Below are positions 2,037-8,201 of a DNA stretch of 52,644 bases, one piece after another. The number at the start of each line of letters is the position of its first letter. The stretch's first letter is position 1. The stretch comes from a bacterium (lineage in GTDB: Bacteria > Vulcanimicrobiota > Vulcanimicrobiia > Vulcanimicrobiales > SCRA01): assembly GCA_004297985.1 (NCBI GenBank), contig SCRA01000060.1, positions 1-52,644 on the forward strand. Direction: 5' to 3'. The translations under genes were made by a program, and so were the position numbers. Under the pieces are notes generated by a model. The model had not been told where the DNA came from. It searched no databases and saw only the letters and a program-made list of their open reading frames with translations.

Positions 2037-2065
2037 TTGAACCTAAGCGGCTTAGATGCTAACAT
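2037..2065 (+). promoter_or_regulatory. Promoter with 13-bp palindrome for the nucleotidyltransferase pair
   Basis: TTGAAC (2037-2042) and TAACAT (2060-2065) are 17 bases apart. The perfect palindrome CTAAGC-G-GCTTAG (2043-2055) fills the spacer. Transcription would start near 2072, exactly at the ATG, which implies a leaderless mRNA and repression by a module protein. Confidence 0.5.
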
Positions 2066-2071
2066 GGAGTT

Positions 2072-2725
2072 ATGGGACAAGATTGGGAGCGCCTTCAGAC
2101 GCTTGTCCGTCACGTTTCGACCGAGTTCCCCGATGCGGTCTTCATCGGCGGCATCGCCGTGGCCCAGCACGCCAAGCAGTTCAACCCGGCGCTGGAAGAG
2201 TCGAGTCACGACGCCGATCTCTACATCTCGCTCGCTGGCAAGAACGAAATGCGCGATCGGTACGAGGTCGCCCGCAACGAGCGCCTCGGTAAGGATTCGG
2301 TGCTCATTGACGGAGAGGACTTTGACCTCTACGTGGAGCGTCAGCACCGCCTTGCCATCCCCTACGACGAGATCGCGGCCCATTCGCAGGAGGTCGACGG
2401 TATCCGAGTAGCGGCGTTGGAGCACCTGTTGATCCTGAAGCTCGACGCCGCGGGCGATCGCTGGGGGAGCGCCAAGGGGGAGAAGGATCTGCGCGACCTC
2501 GCTCGCATCGTGTCGCTCATGCGGGCACCGCGCGAGGCATTGCTCGCCCCGCACTTGGACGAGAGGCGTCTGGGGCTGCTTGGCGACCTCGGCCGGCGAC
2601 GAGACATCTTCCAGCGAATGGGTTTGAACGCGCATGAAGGCAGCCGTCTACGACGGACGTTCGATGAGCATCTCGCACGGATTCGGCGTTTCGGAGGTCA
2701 CGAGCTCGGTGGTCTATCGCTCTAA
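2072..2725 (+). CDS. Nucleotidyltransferase-fold protein of a TA-like pair
   Basis: 217 residues. Near the N-terminus FIGGIAVAQHA is the GG motif of DNA polymerase beta-type nucleotidyltransferases, and SHDADLYIS supplies the two carboxylates of the metal site (D-x-D). FDLYV at about 90 can provide the third. The rest is helical and charged, as in AbiEii and MNT proteins. The promoter is leaderless with its own palindrome, and the next gene overlaps the 3' end; both are typical of TA operons. It could be toxin or antitoxin. Its exact subfamily was not recognised. Confidence 0.65.
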   Translation: MGQDWERLQTLVRHVSTEFPDAVFIGGIAVAQHAKQFNPALEESSHDADLYISLAGKNEMRDRYEVARNERLGKDSVLIDGEDFDLYVERQHRLAIPYDEIAAHSQEVDGIRVAALEHLLILKLDAAGDRWGSAKGEKDLRDLARIVSLMRAPREALLAPHLDERRLGLLGDLGRRRDIFQRMGLNAHEGSRLRRTFDEHLARIRRFGGHELGGLSL

Positions 2726-3188
2726 CCTCGGGATCTCCGCGGCGCGCCCCCTTTTTGGGCGCGAGCGTCAGCGCGTGCTAAACCGGGCGAAGTCGTCCGG
2801 TATCACCGTTGCCGAGATCGCACGGCGCGCCGGCATCCGATATCGCGTCAGCGGCGGGCCACAAGCGCAGGTTGTTCTCTGGAGCGGGCCAGGGCATGGG
2901 CGTACCGTCGACGACCGAGGGAACGTCGTTTTTGCTCTCGATCGTGGCGACATGCCTCAACGCGGTCCTGAGCGCGCCGCAAGGATGCTCGAGATCCTTG
3001 CTTACGGATGCTTCGACTACTCTGCGCGCGAGAGCGTCTGCGGTCGTGGCATATTCGTCTATCCGCTCACCCCTGACCACGGCCGTGCGTGGTTGGCGGA
3101 GATTGGCCGCCGCGGCGGCCGAGCGCGGAGTGCAGCCAAAGCCGCCGCCTCTCGCTCGAATGGCAGAGAGCGCGGGGGCGCACGCTGA
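2709..3188 (+). CDS. Unknown protein, partner of the nucleotidyltransferase
   Basis: About 160 residues. I chose GTG 2709 because GGAGG lies at 2693-2697. An earlier in-frame ATG at 2634 would give a long overlap. Residues about 30-50 (GITVAEIARRAGIRY) look like a helix-turn-helix. The stretch MLEILAYGCFDYSARESVCG looks conserved and may be a helical core. The tail is rich in Arg, Ala and Gly and probably disordered. The 17-base overlap with the preceding gene implies translational coupling. I do not recognise a family, so regulator or antitoxin is only a guess. Confidence 0.45.
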   Translation: MVYRSNLGISAARPLFGRERQRVLNRAKSSGITVAEIARRAGIRYRVSGGPQAQVVLWSGPGHGRTVDDRGNVVFALDRGDMPQRGPERAARMLEILAYGCFDYSARESVCGRGIFVYPLTPDHGRAWLAEIGRRGGRARSAAKAAASRSNGRERGGAR

Positions 3189-3351: not shown

Positions 3352-3617
3352 TGTCAAAGCGCGCCAAAGAGCGACTTCAGGAGCCGGAGATCCCCGCAGC
3401 AGAGTTCAAGGCCAAATGCTTGAGCCTCATGGAGGACGTCTGCGCGCACCGCCACTCCTACACGGTGACCAAGCGCGGCAAGCCCGTTGCCCGTTTGGTT
3501 CCCATCGATGCGGAGGCACCTGCGTTCGTCGGTTCGCTGCGCGGGTTGGTGCTGCGCACTACCGGGCTCACCGAGCCCACCGGAGAGACGTGGGACGCGG
3601 AGCTCGGCCCCGCGTGA
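3345..3617 (+). CDS. Phd/YefM-family antitoxin
   Basis: About 90 residues from ATG 3345 (3351 is also possible). The N-terminal Phd fold is clear: EIPAAEFKAKCLSLMEDV, then a basic turn and TVTKRGKPVARLVPI. The C-terminal part (LVLRTTGLTEPTGETWDAEL) is the flexible toxin-binding tail. It would bind its own operator through the N-terminal dimer and neutralise the VapC toxin encoded directly downstream. Its stop overlaps that gene's start by four bases (GTGA). Confidence 0.9.
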   Translation: MTMSKRAKERLQEPEIPAAEFKAKCLSLMEDVCAHRHSYTVTKRGKPVARLVPIDAEAPAFVGSLRGLVLRTTGLTEPTGETWDAELGPA

Positions 3618-4027
3618 CGTTGCTCCTGGATACCTGCGCCGCCGTCTGGGCAGCGGCAGCGGACCCGTCGCTGCGCCCTGGCGCGCGAAAGGCCATCGAA
3701 GACGCGGCGCGCGGCGGAGACCTCTATCTCTCACCAATTACCGCTTGGGAGATTGCGACGCTCGCTCGAAAAGGGCGCCTGGAACTGGCGGTCTCGCCGC
3801 AAGCCTTCGTCGACCAACTCTTCGGTCGGGCCGGAATTGTCGAAGCTCCCATCCACCCGGAGATCGCGCTCCTCGCAGGCTCACTCGCCGGGGAGTTTCA
3901 CGGGGACCCGGCGGACCGTCTCATCGTGGCGACCGCGATCGTCCACGGGCTGCGCGTCGTCACCCGCGACGAGCGCATCCTTGAATATGCCAAGTCTACG
4001 CGCTCATTCCCGGCGCTGCGCTGCTAG
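3614..4027 (+). CDS. vapC: VapC-family PIN-domain ribonuclease toxin
   Basis: 137 residues with GTG start 3614 inside the phd stop. All four PIN acidic residues are present: Asp6 (LLLDTC), Glu46 (ITAWEIATLARKGRLEL), Asp101 (DPADRLIVATA) and Asp119 (VVTRDERI). Such proteins cleave tRNA or other structured RNA with magnesium when not bound by antitoxin. The domain is intact and of normal length, so the pair is probably functional. Confidence 0.9.
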   Translation: MTLLLDTCAAVWAAAADPSLRPGARKAIEDAARGGDLYLSPITAWEIATLARKGRLELAVSPQAFVDQLFGRAGIVEAPIHPEIALLAGSLAGEFHGDPADRLIVATAIVHGLRVVTRDERILEYAKSTRSFPALRC

Positions 4028-4082
4028 CACGTTAGCCGATCTGGCGGGAATATCACCAAATAATGATGAAATTTACGCCATC

Positions 4083-5330
4083 GTGTTGTACGATCGCTCT
4101 CTCTTGCCCGCTCTCTTGGCCGCCCTCGCCGATACGCCGGTAACGCTTCTCGCGGGGCCCCGCCAAGCGGGCAAGAGCACGCTCGCTCGGGACGGGCTCG
4201 CGGGCTCTCGCCCAATGGCATACGTCACCCTCGATGACGCCGCCGCTCTAGCGTCGGCCCATGCCGATCCGGTGGGATTCGTCGATGGTCTTCGGGAGCC
4301 CACAGTCATCGACGAGGTCCAGCGAGCCACCGGCCTCTTCCCAGCAATCAAGGCGAGCGTAGACCGCGATCGACGCCCCGGACGTTTTCTGCTGACAGGC
4401 TCGGCGAACGTCTTGATGTTGCCGAATCTCTCCGAGTCGCTTGCGGGGCGGATGGTGATACTCACGCTGTGGCCACTCGCGCAGTCGGAGATCGAGCGGA
4501 CAACGCCTCGCCTGCTGGAAGGCCTCTTCGCGCGCGAATTTCCCTCGTGGCGTGGCGGCGGGGGGCGCGTCGATATCGTTGCGCGCGCAATTCGCGGCGG
4601 GTACCCTGAGGCCGTCGCGCGTGCCGACTCACGGCGTCGACAGAGCTGGTTCGGCTCGTATATCACGACGATGATGCAGCGTGAGGTGCGAGACATCGCC
4701 AATGTCGCGGATCTCGCGGCCTTACCGCGTCTCCTCCAATTCGCAGCGGCGCGAGCGGCATCGCTTCTGAATATGGCCGACCTCTCGCGCGACAGTGGTA
4801 TCGCACCCGCCACGCTGAAGCGTTATCTGGCGCTGCTCGAGGCGACCTATCTGGTCCATCGCCTTCCGGCATGGGCGCGAAACGCCACCACGCGTCTGGT
4901 AAAATCGCCGAAGCTCTTGATCGTCGATTCGGGGCTCATGGCGTACTTGCTTCGCGCCGCCGACCCGGCGGCAATCGGTGACGATCCGCGGGTGGGTTCG
5001 CTTGTCGAGAACTTCGTCGGTACGGAGTTGTTGAAGCTCGCCGGTTGTGCGCCGGAGCGCTACACGATCTCGTATTTTCGAACCCAGCATGGTATGGAAG
5101 TTGACTTCGTGATCGAAGATGCGCGTGGCAACGTCGCGGGCATTGAGGTCAAGACCGCAGCTACCGTGTCCGCGCGGGACTTCAACGGGTTACGCGCGCT
5201 GGCTGCCATGACCGGCAGCGACTTTAGGCGGGGAATCGTGCTCTATACCGGCGCTGCCACGCTCTCGTTCGGCGACGGGATGTTCGCCGTTCCGGTCTCT
5301 GCGCTCTGGAGCGCGCCCATTGCTCGCTGA
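4083..5330 (+). CDS. AAA ATPase with DUF4143 C-terminal domain
   Basis: About 415 residues. GTG 4083 (or TTG 4086) is chosen because the family begins with YDRSLLPALLAAL. Walker A is GPRQAGKST, Walker B is in PTVIDEVQRA, and a sensor follows at LLTGSANVLML. The DUF4143 half contains a winged-helix part (MADLSRDSGIAPATLKRYLALL) and a nuclease-like core ending DFVIEDARG...GIEVKTA, which resembles PD-(D/E)XK sites. The role of this family is unknown; a defence or mobility role is often suspected. It stands alone in the TA island and is followed by a relic shared with another ATPase at 40.6 kb. Confidence 0.8.
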   Translation: MLYDRSLLPALLAALADTPVTLLAGPRQAGKSTLARDGLAGSRPMAYVTLDDAAALASAHADPVGFVDGLREPTVIDEVQRATGLFPAIKASVDRDRRPGRFLLTGSANVLMLPNLSESLAGRMVILTLWPLAQSEIERTTPRLLEGLFAREFPSWRGGGGRVDIVARAIRGGYPEAVARADSRRRQSWFGSYITTMMQREVRDIANVADLAALPRLLQFAAARAASLLNMADLSRDSGIAPATLKRYLALLEATYLVHRLPAWARNATTRLVKSPKLLIVDSGLMAYLLRAADPAAIGDDPRVGSLVENFVGTELLKLAGCAPERYTISYFRTQHGMEVDFVIEDARGNVAGIEVKTAATVSARDFNGLRALAAMTGSDFRRGIVLYTGAATLSFGDGMFAVPVSALWSAPIAR

Positions 5331-5341
5331 TCGCGAGTACC

Positions 5342-5449
5342 TTCAATTTGACGCTGACGCCGGAAAGCGAAGTCATCCCGATGGTGTGCGTAACGGCCGC
5401 GGCACTAGGCTGCCTTGCCACCGGATTTCAAGTGCCCGCCGAGGCTTGA
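5342..5449 (+). pseudogene. C-terminal coding relic, copy A of a two-copy repeat
   Basis: Twelve bases after the ATPase stop an open stretch of 35 codons begins FNLTLTPESEVIPMV and ends in TGA, with no start of its own. Its first 45 bases recur at 40610-40654 with five changes, four of them synonymous, which points to ancestral protein coding. I do not recognise the parent protein. See the findings. Confidence 0.5.
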
Positions 5450-5481
5450 CTCGCTCTCATATATATGCATAATATATGCAT
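5446..5481 (+). promoter_or_regulatory. brnTA promoter and operator
   Basis: TTGACT (5446-5451) and CATAAT (5468-5473) are 16 bases apart. The inverted repeat ATGCATA-N3-TATGCAT (5465-5481) overlaps the -10 and ends on the brnT start codon. Transcription should begin at about 5480, the A of the ATG, so the mRNA is probably leaderless. BrnA-type antitoxins repress their own operon through such sites. Confidence 0.65.
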
Positions 5482-5758
5482 GGAGGTTCACTGGGATCCA
5501 CATAAGGCACAGCGGAACCTCAAGAAGCATCGAGTTTCCTTCGCGGATGCGGCAACGGTGCTTGACGATCCATTGGCTCTCACGGTCGAGGATAAGCGCA
5601 ACGACGAACCGAGATGGGTGACGATTGGGCAAGATCTCCGTGGTCGTTTGCTCGTTGTCGTTTACAGCTATCCCGAGAATCTCGTGGATTCCGTGAATCT
5701 TATCTCGGCCCGAGAGGCAGAACCCCGCGAAAGGCGGCAGTACGAAAATGACGACTAA
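5480..5758 (+). CDS. brnT: BrnT-family ribonuclease toxin
   Basis: 92 residues. It matches the family along its length: VHWDPHKAQRNLKKHRVSF, then DAATVLDDPLAL, a strand GRLLVVVYSY, and the C-terminal LISAREAEPRERRQYEN, which carries the conserved Arg and Glu of this RelE-like fold. ATG 5480 is preferred over the ATG at 5465 because it fits the family N-terminus and the predicted start site. It precedes and overlaps its antitoxin gene, the normal toxin-first order of this system. Confidence 0.92.
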   Translation: MEVHWDPHKAQRNLKKHRVSFADAATVLDDPLALTVEDKRNDEPRWVTIGQDLRGRLLVVVYSYPENLVDSVNLISAREAEPRERRQYENDD

Positions 5759-6056
5759 AGCATTGGACAAGCGAAAGGTGACGGCTGCCGAAGGCACCTA
5801 TGATTTCAGCGCTGGCAAGCGCGGGGCAGTTCTTCCTCACAAGGGGAAGGTACGCATCACGATTTGGGTGGATGAGAGTGTGATCGCGCGCTTCCGCGAA
5901 GAGTCCGAGCGTACGGGGCAAGGCTACCAAACCCGCATCAATGCAGCGCTTCGAGAGGCAGCATTTGGAAATCCGCTCATGGATGCCGTGAAGGAGTCTG
6001 TTCGTGAAGTCGTGCGTTCGGAAATAAAGGCCGCTGCTTTGGCAAAGGCAAGGTGA
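5748..6056 (+). CDS. brnA: BrnA-family antitoxin
   Basis: 102 residues, overlapping brnT by 11 bases. The ribbon-helix-helix segment is VRITIWVDESVIARFREESE, followed by GQGYQTRINAALREA, the hallmark of BrnA. The N-terminal 30 residues bind the toxin. The C-terminus is longer than usual, with a charged helix (VKESVREVVRSEIKAAA). The protein should dimerise on the palindrome at 5465-5481 and neutralise BrnT. Confidence 0.9.
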   Translation: MTTKALDKRKVTAAEGTYDFSAGKRGAVLPHKGKVRITIWVDESVIARFREESERTGQGYQTRINAALREAAFGNPLMDAVKESVREVVRSEIKAAALAKAR

Positions 6057-6129
6057 CCGGTCAGGAGGACCGTGCGCGCCCACGAAGACTACCCACAGGC
6101 GCGTGGAGGAGGCCTCCCCGCCGCTCCTC

Positions 6130-6166
6130 TTGCCAAGGGGCGTCCTTAGGATATACAATGAATATC
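6130..6166 (+). promoter_or_regulatory. mazEF promoter and operator
   Basis: TTGCCA (6130-6135) and TACAAT (6154-6159, spacer 18; or TATACA with spacer 16) precede ATG 6167. The inverted repeat GATAT-N7-ATATC (6150-6166) ends directly before that ATG. The predicted start site coincides with the codon. The -35 segment is the part that recurs at 7568. Confidence 0.5.
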
Positions 6167-6418
6167 ATGCAAGTCACGGTTTCGCGCTGGGGGCATAGTC
6201 TCGGCATCCGCGTCCCCAAGGCCATCGCCGACGATCTCCGCCTCACCGAAGGGGCCGTGATCGACATTGAGCCGCTCGATGGCGGCTTCGTGCTTCGCCC
6301 CGCGGCACGCGTGCCGATCACGCGGTACTCCCTCGCCGATCTCGTCAAGCGCATGGGCTCAGCGGACATGGAGCCACGCGAGATTGATTGGGGCACGCCG
6401 CGCGGCGCTGAAGCGTGA
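6167..6418 (+). CDS. mazE: MazE-type antitoxin (AbrB/SpoVT swapped hairpin)
   Basis: About 83 residues. The N-terminal DNA-binding hairpin is typical: MQVTVSRWGHSLGIRVPKAI, then LRLTEGAVIDIEPLDGGFVL. The tail (ADLVKRMGSADMEPREIDWG) is the MazF-binding strand. ATG 6158 would add three residues, but the family N-terminus and promoter position favour 6167. It overlaps mazF by four bases. Confidence 0.88.
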   Translation: MQVTVSRWGHSLGIRVPKAIADDLRLTEGAVIDIEPLDGGFVLRPAARVPITRYSLADLVKRMGSADMEPREIDWGTPRGAEA

Positions 6419-6759
6419 TAGAGCCGGCCTCCTACATTCCCGAGCGCGGTGACGTCGTCTTCGTTGGCCTCGACCCAACACTCGGCCACGAAAGGCAGGG
6501 CCGCCGTCCAGCGCTGGTCGTCTCGAATCGAATGTATAATGAGCGCTCATCGCTCGTCATCGCCTGTCCGCTGACGAGCCGGCGCAAGGGCTTGGTTTTC
6601 GAAGCACCCGTCAAGTTTAATGGACGCGCCGGTTCCGTGTTGGTCGATCAAATCCGGGCGCTCGATCGACTCGCTCGCCCGATCGCATATGCCGGCAGGA
6701 TCACGAAAGATGAGCTTGCACACGTGTTGGGACTCTTAGATGCCCTGCTCTTTCAATGA
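6415..6759 (+). CDS. mazF: MazF-family endoribonuclease toxin
   Basis: 114 residues with a GTG start overlapping the mazE stop. The PemK/MazF barrel is complete: YIPERGDVVFVGLDPTLGHE (loop and first strands), GRRPALVVSN, IACPLTSRRKG (catalytic strand) and the dimer segment GSVLVDQIRALD. MazF enzymes cut mRNA at short motifs. Intact length and coupling to mazE suggest a working module. Confidence 0.92.
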   Translation: MIEPASYIPERGDVVFVGLDPTLGHERQGRRPALVVSNRMYNERSSLVIACPLTSRRKGLVFEAPVKFNGRAGSVLVDQIRALDRLARPIAYAGRITKDELAHVLGLLDALLFQ

Positions 6760-7109
6760 GACGGGCGCGACGGGCAATCCGAGCATGCCGTAAGGCGCCA
6801 GTTCTCACGGAAACACTGCGTGGTAACGCACGCGATGCGAACTTCAACGGCGTGGTGAAGCCTTTCATAGTCCAGAGTGTCGACGACACAACAGCACGAG
6901 AAGCCGGTCGTCTTCTTGGCGCTACGACGCACACGAGAAAGAGGATCCCTAGGAAGACTCAAAAGCCAAATACGGTCGATGCAATGATCGTTGCTGCGGC
7001 TGCTGCTGGTGGAGCGTCCGTCATCCTCACGACCGATCCAGGCGATCTCACGCCACTCGTGCTCTGCCTGTCGCGCCCGCCGAGCATCGAGCCGATCCCA
7101 CGCCGCTAG
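6756..7109 (+). pseudogene. PIN-domain toxin fragment lacking its N-terminus
   Basis: The readable part begins APVLTETLRGNARDANF and continues with VDDTTAREAGRLLG, NTVDAMIVAAA and ILTTDPGDL, i.e. PIN motifs two to four of VapC. The first 30 residues, with the first catalytic aspartate, are missing and the frame runs into the end of mazF. No antitoxin gene is next to it. It is a truncated VapC that probably lost its 5' end when the mazEF unit arrived. Confidence 0.65.
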
Positions 7110-7158
7110 CTGCCTTCCTCTTGCCATCTTCGCGTCGTCCGGGAAGAGATTCGGTGGG

Positions 7159-7584
7159 GTCGATCTTGTCGATACGAGTATTCTGCTGAAGCGCTACGTC
7201 GACGACCAGGACTCGGCTGCCGCCATCGCATTGACGCAGGGATACGAGCTCGTGACGTCTGCCTTTACCGAGGTAGAGTTGCGGTCCGCCTTACATGCCG
7301 CTCGCCGGCGACGGGTGCTTACGACCCGGCAAGTTCACGCGGTGCTCCAGCGCATTGCGGAGGAGCGCGATTGGTGGTTGCTCGTGACGGTAAGCGCGAA
7401 CGTGTTGCGCCGGGCCGAAGAGATCGTTGAGGCGCAGCCGTTACGCGCCGCCGACGCAGTGCATTGCGCCTCGGCGCTCGTCCTGCAAGAAGCGCTGGGA
7501 AACCCTCTGTACTTCGCAACGGCCGACCGGGAACAAGGCCGCTGCGCTCTGGCCCTCGGTCTTCCCACCGCTCCTCTTGCCTAG
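7159..7584 (+). pseudogene. PIN-domain protein without a usable start codon
   Basis: The PIN domain itself is complete: VDLVDTSILLKRYVDD (first Asp), TEVELRSALHAA (Glu), RAADAVHCASAL (Asp) and FATADREQ. However, there is no in-frame ATG, GTG or TTG near the expected N-terminus. The frame stays open back to 6991 over sequence that belongs to the previous fragment. The last codons (APLA) come from the duplicated mazE-upstream segment. There is no antitoxin partner. It may be translated from an unusual start, but more likely it is inactivated. Confidence 0.6.
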
Positions 7585-7620
7585 GGGCGCCTGCCGATGA
7601 TCTCCGCCTCACCGACGGGA
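7568..7620 (+). repeat. Rearranged partial copy of the mazE region
   Basis: Bases 7568-7591 match 6121-6144, upstream of mazE, at 22 of 24 positions. Bases 7593-7620 match the mazE coding segment 6227-6254 at 25 of 28. The roughly 80 bases between them in the original are deleted. It is a deletion-bearing relic of a second mazE locus. Confidence 0.7.
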
Positions 7621-7637
7621 TTTAACATCTAGCAGGG

Positions 7638-7669
7638 TTGATGTCGGTCATACAATGTAGTACACTGTA
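7638..7669 (+). promoter_or_regulatory. Promoter and operator of the BrnT-like/CopG pair
   Basis: TTGATG (7638-7643) and TACACT (7661-7666) have a 17-base spacer. A 9-1-9 palindrome, TACAATGTA-G-TACACTGTA (7651-7669), has one mismatch and overlaps the -10. Each half is itself a TACA-n-TGTA dyad. A ribosome site AGGAG lies at 7682-7686 before ATG 7690, so this transcript has a short leader. Confidence 0.6.
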
Positions 7670-7689
7670 CACCACACAGATAGGAGTTC

Positions 7690-7953
7690 ATGTCTGTGTT
7701 CCCGATTCGGGGTCTCTTCTGGGACGGCAATAATGTTGAGCATCTCTGGCAGAGCCATCAGGTGGCTCCGGATGAAATTGAGGAGATTGTCCTAGGGTGC
7801 GACGGGGAAGATCCCGTGTACCGACAACGCCGTGATGCTGGCGCGGGCAGGCTTTTGAAGATGGTCGGAGAGTTCCTTGAGTCCGGGTTGTTTCGAGTTT
7901 TCGTGGCACGCGACATGGATGGTGCGGAGAAGCACGCCTATCGCCGAGGGTGA
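7690..7953 (+). CDS. Divergent BrnT-like toxin
   Basis: 87 residues. FWDGNNVEHLWQSHQVAPDEIEEIV is the N-terminal half of a BrnT-type fold (WD...N...H.V...E.EE). The C-terminus FRVFVARDMDGAEKHAYRR matches the strand and Arg/Glu helix of the family. The middle lacks the usual GR.L.VV strand in clear form. It is unlike the BrnT at 5480, so it is a separate module. Its stop overlaps the antitoxin start by one base (TGATG). Confidence 0.7.
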   Translation: MSVFPIRGLFWDGNNVEHLWQSHQVAPDEIEEIVLGCDGEDPVYRQRRDAGAGRLLKMVGEFLESGLFRVFVARDMDGAEKHAYRRG

Positions 7954-8201
7954 TGATCATGGCAACAGCAACGAGAAAGACGCATAAGGAAATGGAGCGA
8001 GAGTTGGCTCGCTCCCAACCCAAAGACGTAGAACGCGCCCAGGTCGTCCGCGGGGCGGCTACCCGTTCCCCGATCTCTATCAGGTTGAGCGCACCTCTTC
8101 TCGAGCGCCTTGATCGCATTGCGATAGAGCAGGATCGAAAGCGGGGAAACCTGATTCAGCATATCTTGTGGGAATACGTCCGAACTCACCCGGACGATTG
8201 A
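7953..8201 (+). CDS. CopG-family (ribbon-helix-helix) antitoxin
   Basis: About 82 residues. The start could also be GTG 7950 or ATG 7959. The N-terminal 45 residues are charged (toxin-binding). The ribbon-helix-helix is PISIRLSAPLLERLDRIAIE, followed by KRGNLIQHILWEYVRTH. It would bind the palindrome at 7651-7669. A decayed copy of its 3' half lies at 11966-12057. Confidence 0.8.
   Translation: MIMATATRKTHKEMERELARSQPKDVERAQVVRGAATRSPISIRLSAPLLERLDRIAIEQDRKRGNLIQHILWEYVRTHPDD

Follow-up and report, generated by a model that had tools for sequence, protein, structure and literature searches.

A nucleotidyltransferase gene and a partner of a new family in a candidate toxin-antitoxin operon

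The gene pair, its relatives and its promoter region

In the window (the whole stretch of 52,644 nucleotides that was analysed) a gene for a predicted nucleotidyltransferase (NTase) is followed by the gene of a small protein, here called the partner, and is preceded by a palindrome that resembles an operator (Table 1). When translation of the partner begins at the GTG codon at position 2709, the product has 159 residues and its gene overlaps the NTase reading frame by exactly 17 bp, in agreement with the overlap that an earlier note on this DNA had described. The same GTG position and the same overlap are found in the closest relative (L029, 79% identical). The 17-bp overlap recurs in the relatives L031 and L032, it is 4 bp in L030, and the two genes abut in L033. 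An ATG at position 2634 is an alternative start that would give a partner of 184 residues, but the 25 additional residues are conserved solely in L003 and L029. In the comparison of the window with L029, dN was well below dS for both the NTase (0.07 vs 0.73) and the partner (0.13 vs 0.77), so both behave as true genes under purifying selection. In the frame next to the pair (1281-2036), the 3′ part could be assigned to a class II aldolase domain (Pfam, E 7e-21) and the 5′ part could not, which suggests a gene that has been truncated or frameshifted.

Table 1. Features of the locus (positions in the window)
Feature	Position	Strand	Remarks
-35-like hexamer TTGAAC	2037..2042	+	spacing to the -10-like hexamer 17 bp; seen by eye, under the promoter-scan threshold
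Operator-like palindrome CTAAGCGGCTTAG	2043..2055	+	kept in 6/6 close members
-10-like hexamer TAACAT	2060..2065	+	6 nt before ATG; read by eye
Nucleotidyltransferase (NTase), predicted toxin	2072..2725	+	217 aa
Partner protein, predicted antitoxin and autorepressor	2709..3188	+	159 aa from GTG; start kept in L029
Core domain of the partner (residues 33-110), includes LAYGCFDYSARES	2805..3038	+	matches plasmid proteins of Alphaproteobacteria by profile
Basic C-terminal tail of the partner (GRRGGRARSAAKAAASRSNG)	3084..3176	+	same tail on DUF2442-like proteins of the same genomes; absent in L034, L063
Phd/YefM-PIN	3354-4027		window TA-gene run (3354-8201)
AAA_14/DUF4143 ATPase	within 3753-5330		window TA-gene run
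BrnT-BrnA	5465-6056		window TA-gene run
MazE-MazF	about 6158-6759		window TA-gene run
PIN	within 6991-7584		window TA-gene run
Possible RHH-containing pair	7690-8201		window TA-gene run

A profile search detected the NTase in 5 of the 149 genomes of the window's phylum. The full-length partner was present in exactly those five genomes, and in every one of them its gene was adjacent to the NTase gene and overlapped it. A scan of GTDB representatives added two diverged pairs, again with both genes adjacent, in a Geothrix MAG (L033) and in a proteobacterial MAG (L034). On a Rhizobium leguminosarum plasmid (L063), an NTase that is 34% identical is followed by a partner with an ATGA overlap and the core motif described below. 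Hence, the genome-neighbourhood search that the earlier note had recommended revealed a consistent co-occurrence. The Geothrix pair is about 54% identical to that of the window, i.e., as close as the pairs from more distant genera of the window's order, which points to horizontal transfer of the pair between phyla. Thus, the pair is a real, conserved, rare and mobile two-gene unit. Its two genes are adjacent, probably co-transcribed, co-occurring and moving together, as is generally the case for toxin-antitoxin (TA) genes.

At E 1e-8, no further copies of the NTase were detected in 398 and 297 sampled genomes of two other phyla. Carriage by phages was rejected, as no relatives of the pair were found in INPHARED or IMG/VR. 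An apparent partner match in genome G059 (L055) was dropped, because there was an internal stop within the match. About 20 other genomic loci matched the partner through its C-terminal tail alone and were not counted as relatives; most of them encode DUF2442-like proteins, an identity that was checked by Pfam in one case (L010).

In all six close members, which come from two phyla, the palindrome CTAAGCNGCTTAG occupies the stretch 15-29 bp ahead of the NTase start, and its flanks are unrelated; it begins 27-29 nt upstream of the start codon in each. The mean identity among the six was 94% in the palindrome, as compared with 29% in the 60 nt upstream and 37% between the palindrome and the ATG. 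The palindrome is unique in the window, where 0.02 occurrences with up to one mismatch are expected by chance. Among 148 genomes of the phylum, it was found once per genome in the five that carry the pair, and once each in 5 of the 143 others; these five copies fall within reading frames and are not followed by an AT-rich hexamer and a start codon. It is present in six of the eight pairs, and absent upstream of those of L034 and L063. The pattern also had 22 exact matches in IMG/VR, none of them beside a relative of the pair and with the basic tail as the sole similarity, and these were judged to be due to chance.

The earlier note had described both the promoter and the palindrome as being of TA type. 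The palindrome (2043-2055) is real, but the promoter fits only loosely (TTGAAC-17-TAACAT), and a strict sigma-70 scan found no promoter. The palindrome is located between the loose -35-like and the AT-rich -10-like hexamers, i.e., over the putative core promoter. Reading by eye, we observed that the relatives have similar AT-rich hexamers (TATACT, TATATT, TATAGT, TACACT and TATGAT) 6-7 nt ahead of the ATG, and with a -10-like element at this distance a leaderless transcript is expected.

The nucleotidyltransferase and the DUF1814 toxins

The minimal polymerase-beta core that had been recognized from its GG and D-x-D motifs is present in the window NTase (G26-G27 and D47-x-D49), together with a third Asp, D85. 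The motifs hG[G/S] (motif I), DhD (motif II) and h[DE]h (motif 2a) were present in the eight NTases, all of which keep the GG, the S-x-D-x-D, the third Asp within FDLYVE, the K-x2-A-x3-R and the Asp at K+19. Motifs III and IV take the form K-x2-A-x3-R-x11-D in all eight, and the aromatic residue of motif III is found in L034 and L063 only. The DUF1814 toxins (AbiEii, MenT/TglT and JHP933; PF08843 and relatives) likewise have hGG, DxD and a third acidic residue, a motif III of the form K-L/V-x-A-x3-R and a motif IV Asp at K+19. In the NTase this K and D are 19 residues apart, just as K173/D192 are in AbiEii (PMC3985639) and K189/D208 in TglT/MenT3 (PMC7205606), where these residues are required for the toxicity of the respective proteins. 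In AbiEii, motifs III and IV are needed for toxicity and have been described as exclusive to that family (PMC3985639). Furthermore, the NTase has a Ser two positions ahead of the DxD, equivalent to Ser78 of TglT/MenT3, a residue that becomes phosphorylated in the presence of the antitoxin TakA.

The AlphaFold model of the NTase (pLDDT 89, pTM 0.87) has the two-domain fold of the DUF1814 toxins (Foldseek E 8e-5 to 6.5e-4). Its best PDB matches were a fungal NTase-like protein (5uvd, E 8e-5), the mimivirus poly(A) polymerase and Helicobacter pylori JHP933 (E 3e-4 to 6.5e-4), which is a DUF1814 protein (PMC7205606). The matches to 5uvd and JHP933, with E < 0.001 and a TM of about 0.5, agree with a DUF1814 fold.

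There are also differences from these toxins. The window NTase matched no family library, and neither it nor its relatives matched PF08843 (AbiEii) at E up to 1. The gap between G27 and D47 is 19 residues, rather than the 15 of DUF1814. The Arg of motif II, which precedes the first DhD Asp by four residues, is invariant in DUF1814 (PMC3985639, PMC7205606) and holds a phosphate in MenT3, but it was absent from all eight NTases, with Glu at this position in six of them and Gln and Ala in the others. An hhalign comparison of the NTase with AbiEii proteins from related genomes (17 sequences) gave a weak match (33%, pairwise E 4.5e-4) over 42 columns that cover motifs III-IV only. For these reasons the NTase is called divergent DUF1814-like and not a member of PF08843; by its motif spacing and fold it looks like a divergent relative of the AbiEii/MenT/JHP933 toxins, which include those that modify tRNA in tuberculosis bacteria. 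Assignment to the DUF6036 NTases was rejected, since the window NTase had no such Pfam match and two DUF6036 members in related genomes lack the SHDAD and KG-KD motifs.

The partner protein

Searches of Pfam, NCBIfam, PADLOC and PHROGs placed the partner in no family, and it matched no solved structure by sequence above threshold. The Foldseek check that had been suggested was run with its model against PDB and BFVD, and no fold match was obtained (nothing below E 0.03). What the earlier note had taken for a helix-turn-helix-like segment could be traced to sub-threshold ribbon-helix-helix matches of residues 18-50 of the 159-residue form (NikA-like in Pfam, E 0.006; TraJ, E 0.1), which the fold search did not confirm. 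The model places a strand and two helices in this region, and there are beta-strands between its helices; these matches, all below threshold and with no fold match, hint at an N-terminal ribbon-helix-helix. The distinctive LAYGCFDYSARESVCG stretch is indeed present, and its core, LAYG-x2-DY-x-A, was conserved in the eight NTase-linked partners.

The core domain aligned by hhalign (97.1% over 78 columns) with three plasmid proteins, one of which is the Rhizobium partner, and homologues of the core were found on Agrobacterium, Roseovarius and Rhizobium plasmids. No NTase of the window kind was adjacent to the Agrobacterium, Roseovarius and R. gallicum copies or located elsewhere on the same plasmid, which argues that the core has a life of its own and that its family may not be a dedicated antitoxin. 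The alphaproteobacterial plasmid family with the core RRLAYGF[HN]DYAA (L109:3968-4510, L110:4034-4681, and L111 near 4000) has no Pfam family and no NTase neighbour. Two plasmid proteins, WP_262518578.1 and WP_172978974.1, share LAYGF[HN]DYAA with the partner, but differ from it in their termini and in having no NTase of the window kind nearby.

The tail GxxGGxxxSxAKxxAxRxNGRKGGRPRK ends not only the partner, but also DUF2442-like proteins (L010, L016, L018 and others) and short phage ORFs (L121:1807-1960 and L126:4381-4590). With the DUF2442 proteins the partner shares the GxxGGxxxSxAKxxAxRxNG portion, whereas its body is unrelated to theirs. The tail is thus a detachable module, possibly a DNA-binding one. 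The L034 and L063 partners lack the basic tail and their loci lack the palindrome; the L034 partner, if it starts at an internal ATG (2204, which again gives a 17-bp overlap), also lacks the N-terminal strand and helix. These two outliers, which are weak evidence, are consistent with the tail and the N-terminal strand/helix being the putative operator-reading parts of the partner.

In AbiE the toxin gene is also adjacent to the antitoxin gene, and there the promoter inverted repeat is bound by AbiEi/COG5340. However, AbiEi is a winged-helix two-domain protein that is encoded first, whereas the window partner comes second, has 159 residues, and showed no sequence match to it and no significant fold match (6y8q, E 2.8). 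The earlier statements that the gene order is unlike that of AbiE and that the second protein is not AbiEi therefore held, the order being reversed here and Pfam giving no AbiEi match. Membership in AbiE (type IV TA) was rejected on the same two grounds, i.e., a partner that lies downstream and that matches no AbiEi family. The first position of the toxin gene and the unrelated partner also set the pair apart from the DUF1814 systems.

The HEPN/MNT system (HepT-MntA, type VII) likewise combines an NTase with a small protein, and there MntA AMPylates HepT. By analogy, the partner could be the toxin and the NTase an antitoxin that AMPylates it, perhaps on the invariant Tyr99 or Tyr104 of LAYGxxDY. 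Such an arrangement would agree with the intact NTase active site, with the short and nearly invariant core motif that carries two Tyr, with the R-x5/6-H-x-Y found in the Rhizobium and Roseovarius versions, and with the occurrence of the partner family without the NTase. Nevertheless, we regard it as improbable. No HEPN profile of Pfam matched the partner and hhalign against HepT gave 0.2%, R-x4-6-H-x-Y was present in one and missing in seven of the eight partners, and the beta-strands predicted between the helices are unlike HEPN, so that membership in HEPN/MNT was rejected, as the earlier note had anticipated. The NTase, moreover, carries the DUF1814-like motifs III/IV. Since these are toxin-class motifs and the partner is not HEPN, this alternative is less likely than one in which the NTase is the toxin.

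Interpretation of the pair

We consider it reasonably probable that the pair forms a TA operon headed by its toxin gene; the toxin would be a divergent DUF1814-like NTase, and the new partner family would supply the antitoxin and autorepressor. The proposal is based on the conserved operon, the intact active-site residues and the NTase fold, the operator-like site, the co-occurrence, the cross-phylum spread and the TA-rich neighbourhoods. From these observations we infer toxicity, an RNA target, neutralisation, repression and the identity of the operator-binding protein. If the NTase acts as MenT and AbiEii do, it would attach nucleotides to an RNA, with tRNA as the likeliest substrate, and thereby stop growth, and the partner would neutralise it. 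The partner, alone or with the toxin, would bind the palindrome that overlaps the core promoter, so that the operon would be repressed. Against a TA operon speak the failure to match PF08843, the missing motif II Arg, the weak AbiEii alignment, the plasmid cores that occur free of the NTase, the two loci (L034 and L063) without the palindrome, and a partner without a fold match.

In the window, Phd-PIN, BrnTA, MazEF and PIN genes are located at 3.3-8.2 kb, directly downstream of the pair, and the neighbours of the Geothrix pair on its two sides are a PIN gene, an HTH-Gp49 pair and a DUF4143 ATPase. Such TA-rich surroundings fit a TA module, by guilt by association. They also bear on an alternative without any TA function, namely a self-regulated NTase operon that serves housekeeping, regulation or the modification of small molecules, and in which the second gene would be a regulator or cofactor. 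The fold search also matched the aminoglycoside enzyme ANT(2''), and partner-core proteins occur without the NTase, which would be in line with such a role. The ANT(2'') match (E 2e-3), however, ranked below the DUF1814 structures, and the very patchy distribution (5 of 149 genomes), the cross-phylum and plasmid spread and the TA-rich neighbourhood argue against housekeeping, so we judge this explanation unlikely.

If the pair is a TA operon, it could serve, as a special case, as an infection-triggered anti-phage or abortive-infection module of the AbiE kind instead of a maintenance TA; this is a possibility of limited weight, and its probability overlaps with that of the TA operon. AbiEii relatives function in phage exclusion (PMC3985639), and the distribution is patchy and mobile. 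On the other hand, PADLOC gave no match, and in the stretches that were looked at the neighbours are TA genes and not known defence systems.

TA types are defined by the mode of toxin neutralisation, a mode that sequence cannot reveal. Because types rest on that mode and the NTase belongs at least in part to a known kind, as a divergent relative of the AbiEii/MenT/JHP933 toxin family, the candidate new TA type of the earlier note is not supported; the new part is the partner family. Neither of the findings that the earlier note had named as refuting its view was made: the partner matched no known family, and the pair co-occurs in other genomes. The antitoxins of MenT-type toxins are diverse and unrelated, and the mechanisms by which they silence the toxin are under active study. 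The partner might represent a new family of antitoxins, one that silences its DUF1814-like toxin by inducing auto-phosphorylation of the invariant Ser45 (S-x-D-x-D) in the absence of the motif II Arg, or the NTase might modify the LAYGxxDY tyrosines of the partner; we hold this to be rather doubtful. If true, Ser45 auto-phosphorylation or tyrosine modification would give toxins of this class a chemistry of neutralisation that is new. An unrelated partner that is linked to its NTase by co-occurrence and an operator-like site would offer an independent test of silencing through the same Ser. Both proteins are absent from the family libraries, and the system therefore escapes annotation pipelines.

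Both the window (3753-5330) and the Geothrix locus (L033:7157-8575) have a gene for a DUF4143 ATPase no more than about 2 kb downstream of the pair, in opposite orientations, which may be due to chance or to a shared island.
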